Below, one piece after another: positions 6,223-24,028 of a DNA stretch of 51,089 nucleotides. Each line of letters begins with the position of its first letter. Position 1 is the stretch's first letter. The notes under the pieces are model-generated. The model made no database searches and was not told where the DNA came from. It saw only the letters and a list, made by a program, of their open reading frames with translations. Both the position numbers and the translations under genes were made by a program. Origin of the DNA: Coriobacteriia bacterium (GTDB lineage: Bacteria > Actinomycetota > Coriobacteriia > Coriobacteriales > Eggerthellaceae); the NCBI GenBank assembly GCA_030523425.1, contig JAUNIP010000008.1, forward strand, positions 1 through 51,089. The letters run 5' to 3'.

Positions 6223-7113
6223 ATGAATCGAAACGTTGACAACTCTTCCCAACTTCCCCTGTTGCTGCACGCCTGCTGCGGGCCGTGTTCGCTTGAGCCA
6301 GTGCGCCTGCTGCAAAAACGCGGCTTTGCGCCGCACATCTTTTACGCGAACAGCAACATTGCACCCGTTCAGGAATACCAGCGGCGGCGGGAAACGCTGC
6401 AGGATTGGGCGCAAAGCGAAGGCATTGCGGCGTTTGAAGGCACCTACGACCCGCAAGCCTGGGAAGAAACCGCCGGGCGCATAGGGCAAGCGGCCCTGGA
6501 GGAAGCGCAAAACGCCCCCGCGAACGACGAAGCCAACAACCGCGTCATTTCGACCGGAGGCGGCGAAGCCGCCGGAGTTAAGAAATCTAGTCCGGGACCC
6601 GACATTCCCGCCGTCTTGCGCGTTGACCCCGCAAAGCGCGAAGCCCGCTGCCGGGCGTGCTACCGCCTGCGCCTGCAAGAAGCGGCCCGCTTCGCCGCCG
6701 AACACGGCTACGAAGCCTTAGGCACCACGCTGACGGTCAGCATCTACCAATACACCAACGTGATTCGCGAAGAGCTGGAAGCGGCCTGCGCCCCCTTCGG
6801 CCTAACGCCCGTGTTCGACGACTTCCGCCCCTACTTTGACCAGGCCGAACAACGCAGCAAGGAACTGGGCATGTACCGGCAGAACTACTGTGGTTGCCGC
6901 TTCAGCGAACAAGAGGCGGCCGCCCAGCGCGCGCAGCGCCGCGCCGCCGCGAAGGCCCACAAGCAAGCGTGGCGCGAAGAGCACGCCGAAGAGTTGGCGG
7001 CCGAAGAGCAAGCGCGACAAAGCAAGCGAGCCGAAAAGGCCGCCTACGCCGAAAGGCAGCGCCAGAAGCACGCCGCCTTGCAGGCATGGCGCGAATCCCA
7101 GGTAAGGCAGTGA
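6223..7113 (+). CDS. queH: Epoxyqueuosine reductase QueH with an in-frame palindromic insertion
   Basis: QueH (296 aa) reduces epoxyqueuosine to queuosine in tRNA and is an unrelated replacement for cobalamin-dependent QueG. The family signatures are present: LLHACCGPCS (C18, C19, C22), YANSNIAP, RCRACYRLRL (C143, C146), and a late CGC in NYCGCRF. A Lys/Ala/Arg-rich helical tail of about 60 residues follows. Residues 107-130, just before the second Cys pair, are encoded by a palindromic repeat (6544-6591), making this loop longer than usual. The start is divergent from the HAD gene by 46 bp, and queA follows 9 bp after the stop, so queH-queA are an operon. Confidence 0.93.
   Translation: MNRNVDNSSQLPLLLHACCGPCSLEPVRLLQKRGFAPHIFYANSNIAPVQEYQRRRETLQDWAQSEGIAAFEGTYDPQAWEETAGRIGQAALEEAQNAPANDEANNRVISTGGGEAAGVKKSSPGPDIPAVLRVDPAKREARCRACYRLRLQEAARFAAEHGYEALGTTLTVSIYQYTNVIREELEAACAPFGLTPVFDDFRPYFDQAEQRSKELGMYRQNYCGCRFSEQEAAAQRAQRRAAAKAHKQAWREEHAEELAAEEQARQSKRAEKAAYAERQRQKHAALQAWRESQVRQ
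6544..6591 (+). repeat. Palindromic dispersed repeat inserted in frame in queH
   Basis: Imperfect palindrome with outer arms GTCATTTCGACCGG and CCGGAGTTAAGAAATC and a core stem GGCGGC-GAA-GCCGCC at 6559-6573. The same architecture, with matching GTCATT..CCGGAGG and GGA(A)ATCT ends, recurs between genes at 22482-22530. It keeps the queH frame open. Confidence 0.75.
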
Positions 7114-21626: not shown

Positions 21627-21878
21627 CTAAGCAACCGGGCGGACATGAATCTTGCGCTTCACGCCCCGGGTGAACTCCAGCGTGCCGTCGCACAGGGCGA
21701 ACAGCGTGTCGTCCTTGCCGCGGCCCACGTTCTCACCGGGGTGGAAATGGGTGCCGCGCTGACGGACGATGATGTTGCCAGCCTTCACGTATTCGCCAGC
21801 GAACTTCTTCACGCCCAGACGCTGTGCGTGAGAGTCACGGCCGTTGCGGGTGGAGCCTAAGCCCTTCTTGTGTGCCAT
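21627..21878 (-). CDS. rpmA: 50S ribosomal protein L27
   Basis: L27 (83 aa), located near the peptidyl transferase centre. The N-terminus [16 protein letters not shown] is mature-type with no cleavable Firmicutes prosequence. [23 protein letters not shown] is the family core. It follows rplU by 32 bp and a terminator comes after it. Confidence 0.98.
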
Positions 21879-21910
21879 GGTGGATACCTCCCTGTTATGC
21901 TTTCGGCCGT

Positions 21911-22216
21911 CTAACCGATGGTCTTGATTTCAACGCGGGTCAGATACTGACGATGACCGCGCAGCTTCTTGTAATTCTTGCGCTTCTTGAACTTGAACAC
22001 CAGCTGCTTTTTGCCGCGGAACTGCTCAAGCACTTCGGCGGTCACCTTGGTGGCAGCGGCCGCTTCAGGGTTGGCCTCTACCGCCGTGCCGTCAACAACG
22101 CAGATAACCGGAAGCTCCACGGTGTCCCCCACCTGAGCATCCAGCTTTTCAATGTTCAGTTTGTCACCCACGGCAACCTTGTACTGCTTGCCGCCCGTTT
22201 TCACGATTGCGTACAT
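21911..22216 (-). CDS. rplU: 50S ribosomal protein L21
   Basis: L21 (101 aa), a 23S rRNA-binding large-subunit protein. It starts [14 protein letters not shown], typical of the family, and ends with [18 protein letters not shown]. First gene of the rplU-rpmA-obg-proB unit. A clear sigma-70-type promoter lies 36-64 bp upstream. Confidence 0.98.
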
Positions 22217-22251
22217 GTTATCTCCTTGAACGTGTCAAAACGCGAAGCAGT

Positions 22252-22280
22252 ATCTTACCCGATACAAAGCCGCGCGTCAA
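22252..22280 (-). promoter_or_regulatory. Promoter of rplU-rpmA
   Basis: Minus-strand TTGACG (22275-22280), 17-bp spacer and TAAGAT (22252-22257). The -10 is 36 bp upstream of the rplU start, and the following leader has a purine-rich ribosome binding site. Confidence 0.65.
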
Positions 22281-22481
22281 CAACCCAAAGGCCTGTTTTT
22301 TCGATTGTGAGTGGAACAACCAAAAGCGCGGGTCTTAGGGGTGCAAGTAATTCTTCTTTTCGCCCAATTAGTGGGAAACAGCGCTTGGGCGCAAGTATTC
22401 TAGCACGCCCGAAGGCGGTTGCAAGTAGGAATTTGGCGCGCCTGCAGCATCTTACCCGGAGGCGCGACGGCGTGCGTGCAT

Positions 22482-22530
22482 GTCATTCCAACCGGAGGTG
22501 CGCCCTTTGGCGCGCCGATGTGGAGGAATC
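22482..22530 (+). repeat. Intergenic copy of the palindromic element found in queH
   Basis: Begins GTCATTCCAACCGGAGG and ends GTGGAGGAATC, with a GCGCCC-TTT-GGCGCG core. Ends and spacing match the queH insertion (6544-6591); the core stem differs. Confidence 0.65.
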
Positions 22531-22555
22531 TGCTTCAAAGCATGGACCATTCCCG

Positions 22556-22803
22556 GTGGGCGCGCGCACGAGGCGCAATGTTGGGCGCTACGCTGGGGGT
22601 TTAGGGCAAAGAAAAGAAGGGCAGGCTTGTTGAGGCATGGACCCTCGCCTTCGGCGACGCGGGGCTGTGGCTGGTCGCAGGGTCGCGCGCACGAGGCGCA
22701 ATGTGAGCGCTACGCTGGGGCTATTAGGCAAGGAAAAGGAAGCGCCCTGCTTTGGGGCATGGAACCTCGCCTTCGGCGACGCGCGCCGTGGCGGGCTTGG
22801 GGC
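22556..22803 (+). repeat. Two 122-bp tandem units, forward orientation
   Basis: The landmark CTCGCCTTCGGCGACG recurs at a period of 122 bp (22643 and 22765 for its start). Each unit also holds CGCGCGCACGAGGCGCAATG and CGCTACGCTGGGG. A truncated unit end precedes the first copy. Confidence 0.8.
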
Positions 22804-22825
22804 GTGGGCCGGCCGCGGCCCCGCC

Positions 22826-23453
22826 TGGCAGGAAACGCCGAAAGTTGGAACGGTTTTCGGGGAAAGTGGCAGGAGAACGCGAAAGTTGGAACGCACGGGC
22901 CGCATCGGGGCTAGGCGGGCGCGTGCGCCGAGGGACCTGGATTCGATGCCACCTCTGTGACCTGGGGAAACACAAAACGCCTCCAGCCTGAGGGGTTCAC
23001 TCGGGCGCTTCCGGTGCCGCGCGGGGGCCCAAGGATTCCAACTTTCGCCGTCTGCTGCCACGCAACGGAAAAAGTGTTCCAACTTTCGGCTTCTGCTGCC
23101 ACGCATCGGAAAAACCGTTCCAACTTTCACGTTTTCCTGCCACACGGACTTGACCGCGCCCCGTGTGGCAGCAGAAGCCGAAAAACGGAATCAAATCCGG
23201 AGCTTTTGGCAGGAGAACGTGAAAGACGGAATCAAACATCCCTTCCGCGGGGGCCGAACCCGCGACCGGATTTCGCACCAACGCGTTCACGAGCTTCTGA
23301 CCTGCTGCGATGCGATTCGGCGCCGAAAGGACGCCTGCGGGTGGCACCGTTCGGGCGCCCAGAAAGGGCCAAAAAGGCCGCCTTGATTCCGTCTTTCGGC
23401 TTCTGCTGCCATCTTCCCGGAATTTGATTCCGTCTTTCGGCTTCTGCTGCCAC
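22826..23453. repeat. Nine copies of a 28-31-bp motif in both orientations
   Basis: Copies at about 22826, 22867 (direct), 23035, 23076, 23117 (inverted), 23165, 23206 (direct), 23383 and 23423 (inverted). The core is TGGCAGNAGAA..GAAAG followed by either TTGGAAC or ACGGAATC. A perfect 10-bp hairpin TGCCACACGG / CCGTGTGGCA (23138-23170) joins copies five and six. Confidence 0.8.
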
Positions 23454-23479
23454 CTGGGGCCCCGCCCGGCCGCGAAAAA

Positions 23480-23960
23480 CCCCGCGTCGCCGAAGGCGAG
23501 GGCCCGGTCCCCAAAGCAGCACGCCTCCTTTTCCTTGCCCAATAGCCCCAGCGCAGCGCCCCCGTCGCGCCTCGTGCGCGCGAACCCGCGGCCTGCGAAA
23601 ACCCCGCGCCGCCGAAGGCGAGGGTCCATGCCCCAAAGCAGCACGCCTCCTTTTCCTTGCCCTAAGTCCCAGCGCAGCGCTCCCATCGCGGCTCTTGCGC
23701 GCGACCCTGCGACCAGCCACAGCCCCGCGTCGCGAACGCGAGGGTCCAGGCCCCAACCCGCTTGCCTCCCTTTTCTTTGCCTAAATAACCCCAGCGCAGC
23801 GCTCCCATCGCGCCTCGTGCGCGCGACCCAGCGGCCGGCAAACCCCCGCGTCGCCGAAGGCGAGGGCCCAGGCCCCAAGCCGCCTGCCCTCCCTTTCTTT
23901 GCCCTAATAGCCCCAGCGCAGCGCTCCCATCGCGGCTCGTGCGCTCGCCCGTTGCGAGCG
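23480..23960 (-). repeat. Four 121-122-bp tandem units, reverse orientation
   Basis: Units start at about 23480, 23602, 23723 and 23844, each opening CCCCGCGYCG and containing a pyrimidine tract and CCCAGCGCAGCGC. They are the reverse complement of the units at 22556-22803. Confidence 0.8.
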
Positions 23961-24028
23961 GTCCGCGCTCCAAGGAAGACCTCTCCACTCCGCGGCCTGA
24001 CGGCCGCTCCGGGGCAGAGTCAGACGGT

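Follow-up and report, generated by a model that had tools for sequence, protein, structure and literature searches.

Palindromic repeats that code for part of a protein were at first regarded as a peculiarity of Rickettsia. The Rickettsia palindromic elements (RPEs, reviewed in PMC10969869), which are described as about 150 bp long, occur as in-frame insertions in metabolic genes unrelated to one another and are translated as extra segments. In-frame palindromes are also known from other REP-rich species (PMC3733652). The CGTC-tagged REP superfamily (Di Nocera 2013, PMC3733652), which includes RPE-4 and RPE-6 of R. conorii and dRS3 of Neisseria, has an unpaired CGTC, TGTC or CCTC tag, one stem of 8-9 bp that begins with A-T and then T-A pairs, a loop of 4-5 nt and a CCA tail. 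Units of this superfamily occur in frame within genes, are predominantly arranged as head-to-head dimers and have no dedicated transposase. GTAG REPs and REPINs are short imperfect palindromes that are present in many copies and are associated with a RAYT (TnpA-REP) transposase. Finally, the enterobacterial units RU-1, RU-2 and RU-3 (PMC2759123) are 103-168 bp long and intergenic, but also lie in frame in genes, where they give new peptides.

We analysed a DNA stretch of 51,089 nucleotides (the window), which is contig C58 of the genome of a Coriobacteriia bacterium (1.97 Mb in 92 contigs). Within the window, a palindrome of this kind lies in the gene for epoxyqueuosine reductase QueH. The best reading is that a known phenomenon occurs here in a new lineage, namely a REP-like palindrome as a linker peptide in a gut-type actinobacterium (Coriobacteriia). 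The host phylum, Actinomycetota, is not mentioned in the main text of PMC3733652, and a literature search of incomplete coverage found no report of such elements for Eggerthella or Coriobacteriia, which is weak evidence of novelty.

In-frame palindrome in queH

The queH ORF (6223..7113, forward strand) is intact, has 296 codons and matches PF02677 (E=1.3e-48) and PDB 7lc5; the named relatives of this QueH are from Eggerthellaceae (Coriobacteriia, Actinomycetota). An earlier note, made from the sequence alone, had placed a palindrome at 6544-6591 in this gene. The palindrome is real and lies inside the gene (68.8 bits, E=1.2e-15 with covariance model R1, a score that is partly by construction because the queH copy is among the 17 aligned copies from which the model was built), but its extent is 6544..6593 on the forward strand (GTCATTTCGACCGGAGGCGGCGAAGCCGCCGGAGTTAAGAAATCTAGTCC). 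The first base is the exact start of codon 108, at an offset of 321 nt (107 codons), and the reading frame is uninterrupted across the palindrome, as had been claimed. Both Cys clusters are indeed retained (ACCGPC at residues 17-22 and RCRAC at 142-146), and CGC is present at 223-225. In contrast, the size and position of the added segment had to be revised. Instead of residues 107-130 (24 aa) immediately before the second CxxC pair, the repeat encodes residues 108-123/124 (16-17 aa, VISTGGGEAAGVKKSSP), and this segment ends about 18 residues ahead of the CxxC.

Other QueH proteins had been thought to possess a short loop at this place. In 79 QueH sequences, 78-177 residues (median 85) separate the first Cys motif from the CxxC, a distance that is thus not uniformly short; the loop is free to vary in length. 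The spacing here is 127. Because the excess over the family median (42 residues) is larger than the 17 residues from the repeat, the repeat explains only part of it. The linker would either have been long beforehand or have gained further sequence besides the repeat.

An AlphaFold2 model of QueH was built from 40 aligned QueH sequences. The mean pLDDT was 91.4, and residues 112-114 were the sole stretch below 50. In the blocks spanning residues 101-120, pLDDT averaged 63 and 52, and residues 107-129 had no secondary structure. Because pLDDT is low and secondary structure is lacking at the segment, the repeat is predicted to form a disordered loop, while the rest of QueH is normal. QueH also has a long helical C-terminal extension rich in Ala, Glu, Arg and Lys (residues 226-295, window 6898-7110). 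This extension is common to most of the Eggerthellaceae proteins aligned, and the QueH ORFs of Collinsella are far shorter.

When we searched both strands of the approximately 80 QueH-bearing loci of relatives with the covariance model, the palindrome was absent from all of them. In this comparison with relatives from other genera, the closest of them only about 55-59% identical, neither an exact empty site nor a target duplication was found at queH.

Structure and genomic copies of the palindrome

The 17 aligned copies have a common structure, GTC-ATTYC-GA-CCG-GAG-[stem]-CGG-AGTGGA-GRAAT-CTA. In the queH copy (forward strand), the CGTC tag (6543..6546) is next to the stem. The outer stem pairs ATTTC (6547..6551) with GAAAT (6582..6586), which is followed by CTA, the middle stem pairs CCG (6554..6556) with CGG (6573-6575), and the inner hairpin is GCGGC-GAA-GCCGC (6560..6572). 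According to the pair counts, 93.1% of stem cells in the 17 copies are paired. The outer helix has 95.3% of cells paired, with T-A/C-G covariation, and the middle helix 86.3%; in the inner helix, whose arms covary among copies, both-side changes occur in 4/4 pairs. The covariation score is 0.453, as compared with 0.209 for shuffled alignments (0 of 500 shuffles reach the real score) and at most 0.164 when the partners are slid. Two simpler measures are unconvincing alone: the single-sequence fold has a z value of -1.4, and a pattern search in the window only gave 2 matches against 1.5 expected. Genome-wide, the pattern GTCATTNCGACCGG was found 23 times and the reversed control 3 times.

Model R1 detected at least 56 copies in the genome at E<1e-3, so the palindrome has dozens of copies other than that in queH. 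The copy nearest to the queH copy, C81:10141, is intergenic and 90% identical over 50 nt. About 9% of copies would be expected to lie no more than 1 kb from a contig end, but 18 of the 56 do, so the assembly breaks at the palindrome and the copy number of 56 is a minimum. Most intergenic copies have a common 50-bp 3′ extension. A related intergenic copy, which the earlier note had located at 22482, was detected at 22482..22536 (forward strand; 56.0 bits, E=4e-12) between obgE-side genes and polA. A third copy (23972..24015, reverse strand; 23.2 bits, E=0.0036) is weak, degenerate and inverted and lies at the far end of a repeat array. This array (22482-24015) consists of intergenic tandem repeats of about 122 bp arranged as large inverted repeats, and is flanked by the strong (+) and the weak (-) copy.

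A known structured RNA was rejected as the identity of the element, since the sole match, RF01497 on the other strand, scored 14.5 bits against a gathering threshold of 50. Selection for a stop-free element was also rejected: five of the six frames are open in 41-43 of the 56 copies, and in 64-73% of shuffles. Thus, the consensus has no special coding readiness.

Comparison with described repeat families

The tag is CGTC in the queH copy. Among the 56 copies of the genome, TGTC is found in 33 and CGTC in 5, and 70 of 78 copies in one relative (G058) carry CGTC. The first stem pairs are AU (columns 4-50) and UA (columns 5-49), each in 14 of 17 aligned copies. Head-to-head dimers are seen in relatives: opposite-strand pairs of palindromes at most 150 bp apart number 8 in G058 and 4 in G064, and 0 in the source genome. 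In its tag, its first stem pairs, the presence of units inside genes and the non-association with transposase genes, the palindrome matches the CGTC REP superfamily. However, it is about 50-55 bp long, folds not into one stem but into three helices (5 + 3 + at least 4 bp) interrupted by a bulge and an internal loop, and ends in CTA, CTG or similar instead of CCA. The longer bulged stem and the tail place it outside the families of PMC3733652.

In behaviour, the palindrome resembles the RPEs, as the earlier note had suggested. In its own genome it lies in frame in four unrelated genes (three besides queH). Many genes of relatives also hold in-frame copies, and there are same-genus orthologues among the relatives that lack the segments (see below). 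The core of about 50 bp is shorter than the RPEs, with which it was compared by description only. In sequence, the palindrome appears closer to the CGTC-tagged REPs than to the RPEs, which are longer. The RU units, likewise compared by description only, are longer and come from other hosts. The palindrome shares its shortness, imperfect pairing and high copy number with the GTAG REPs, but has no consistent GTAG tag: the opposite strand reads GTAG in 22 of the 56 copies and CTAG in 17, the queH copy included, and GTAG is hardly present in the copies of relatives.

In-frame copies in other genes of the genome

Besides queH, three genes contain in-frame copies. One encodes a gamma/delta fusion of 2-oxoacid:ferredoxin oxidoreductase (C66:26259; POR, Fer4; PorC_KorC, PorD_KorD), in which the copy sits between two 4Fe-4S motifs. 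According to the alignment, this copy adds about 18 aa relative to L227, L228 and L230, the three orthologues nearest in linker length. The second gene encodes an AddA-like helicase-nuclease (C9:71913), with the copy in the linker between the Pfam domains UvrD_C and PDDEXK_1. The third encodes a putative membrane protein (C9:2111), which is the weakest of the four in-gene cases because it did not pass the GC-periodicity filter and lacks a Pfam match. All four in-gene copies, QueH included, have the same orientation and the same frame (VIST/VTPT/VIPS/VIPN...). They also lack the 50-bp 3′ extension (log-odds -20 to -32, as compared with +18 to +54 for the majority), as do a few other copies. A sequence of 16-17 residues that is nearly identical to the QueH segment is present in another gene.

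The codon-position GC test failed for long ORFs across intergenic copies (488 aa in C29, 520 aa in C4 and 269 aa at 21824-22633), which were therefore left out of the in-gene cases; the 520-aa ORF has no Pfam match either. A CCAACAA or similar AACAA stretch precedes in-gene copies (window 6532-6549, C9:71905, C9:2103, C37:3690 and C37:4562), and CCAACAATGTCATTCCGA occurs 10 times in the genome, with 0 occurrences in the control. This stretch may reflect a preferred target or belong to a variant of the element.

Palindromes in relatives

In the first-search tally, the covariance model matched 14 of 100 genomes, with a patchy distribution. Copies in relatives were assigned to ORFs when both flanks had coding-type GC periodicity. 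By this criterion, 40 of the 158 copies examined in G058, G064, G003, G040, G043, G022 and G090 are within ORFs (G090, G003 and G040 were sampled rather than exhausted). Applied to the source genome, this filter retains 3 of its 56 copies, all three being in-gene copies named above. Many of the in-ORF copies in relatives fall between Pfam domains. For example, the segment in MtaB (NCBIfam name) is at residues 158-173, between UPF0004 and Radical_SAM. Segments are also present in MurT|GatD (503-518), RimI|TsaD (400-440), three regions of Lhr, a two-domain ABC ATPase protein, an ABC exporter, DXR and others. The in-gene copies of relatives use both orientations and several frames. In G058, single housekeeping proteins hold several palindromes each (loci L305, L317, L320 and L325), as in the RimI-TsaD linker, which has an inverted pair, and in one Lhr helicase.

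G017 is of the same genus as G058 and has no model match. Its MtaB, 63% identical to that of G058, lacks a block of 35-45 residues, and a 572-aa protein (72% identical) has gaps across the element. The RimI-TsaD of G017 (81% identical) has an ordinary Ala/Gly linker where G058 has the inverted palindrome pair, and its MurT-GatD has a shorter linker without palindromes. These alignments indicate that same-genus orthologues lack such segments, the empty sites being at segment level and not base-exact, with linkers that have diverged too. In G003, the linker of an orthologue of the POR gamma subunit (L228) holds CHPERSDGAATPCHPGRAQRVEGSP. This resembles the peptide that a further REP-like palindrome would encode after a separate insertion into the same gene.

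Probable insertion of the palindrome in queH

We consider it very probable that a REP-like palindrome landed in queH, kept the frame and was tolerated as a linker peptide, with a probably neutral effect on the enzyme. A dispersed hairpin-forming, CGTC/TGTC-tagged palindrome would have spread through the Eggerthellaceae genome and reached queH as a 50-bp copy by insertion. It may have been moved by a trans-acting enzyme or through an error of replication. The insertion would have preserved the frame and, having no in-frame stop, would have given a short hydrophilic peptide of Gly, Ala, Lys, Ser and Pro in a length-tolerant, solvent-exposed loop that connects the first Cys motif with the CxxC; QueH would presumably have remained active. 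Selection may then have acted as a filter, in which the survivors are in-frame, stop-free insertions in disordered linkers. Such a filter would account for the presence of in-frame copies in the linkers of proteins in this genome and its relatives. Thus, the earlier interpretation of a mobile palindrome tolerated as a peptide segment is supported, with mobility as its inferred part.

It is unlikely that the inserted palindrome is now functional and selected, with the peptide or the mRNA hairpin tuning QueH activity or translation. Such a role would fit the intact stems of the queH copy and the other in-gene copies, the single frame and orientation of the four copies in this genome, and their core-only form. 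However, frame bias and the core-only form are expected from survival filtering too. Moreover, the target proteins are unrelated, the copies of relatives have no common orientation or frame, and the segment is predicted to be disordered and is absent from all other QueH loci searched.

An assembly artefact, in which a misjoin at the repeat put the palindrome into queH, might be suspected from the crowding of copies at contig ends. We regard this as very improbable, because the gene lies 6.5 kb into a contig of 51 kb and its reading frame runs on from the N-terminal half of one QueH into the C-terminal half, the same pattern recurs in three further genes, and in-gene copies are found in relatives too, single-contig genomes included. 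That no insertion occurred and a native low-complexity linker converged by chance on the palindrome is hardly credible: the loop is hypervariable and of low complexity in relatives and the single-sequence fold is unremarkable, but the match to a genome-wide family (E of about 1e-15), the identity to the intergenic copy C81:10141 and the near-identical peptide in another gene contradict it.

The insertion in queH may be one example of a wider process. It is possible, although we would not rely on it, that the core-only form of a transposase-independent Coriobacteriia palindrome recurrently yields new linker peptides genome-wide, and that some species (such as G058) have at least one such segment in many housekeeping proteins. 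The comparative material in relatives is unusually good. Same-genus genomes with and without the repeat offer a natural experiment on the conversion of selfish hairpins into protein segments, on the places at which proteins tolerate them and on the spread of CGTC-type repeats in the absence of an evident transposase. There is also a practical warning, that extra peptides in such proteins derive from repeats.

Transposase genes and dispersal

The mobility of the palindrome is suggested by its dispersal and by its absence from compared loci. The source genome has three Y1_Tnp genes, one of which is near the cut-off of the NCBIfam REP-associated transposase model (71.7 against 80 bits). In the loci of these three genes, no full or clear palindrome copy was found beside the transposase gene; a weak half-site is upstream of one. 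Y1_Tnp was tallied in 7 of 13 repeat-bearing relatives and in 43 of 87 others, and several repeat-rich relatives have no Y1_Tnp at all. Dispersal driven by a RAYT was therefore rejected, because the presence of Y1_Tnp does not track the repeat and none of the three genes is flanked by it. The lack of a linked transposase agrees with the description of the CGTC REPs (PMC3733652). One of the three Y1 transposase genes (L135, C50:12621) has an apparent frameshift, with its downstream part in another frame.
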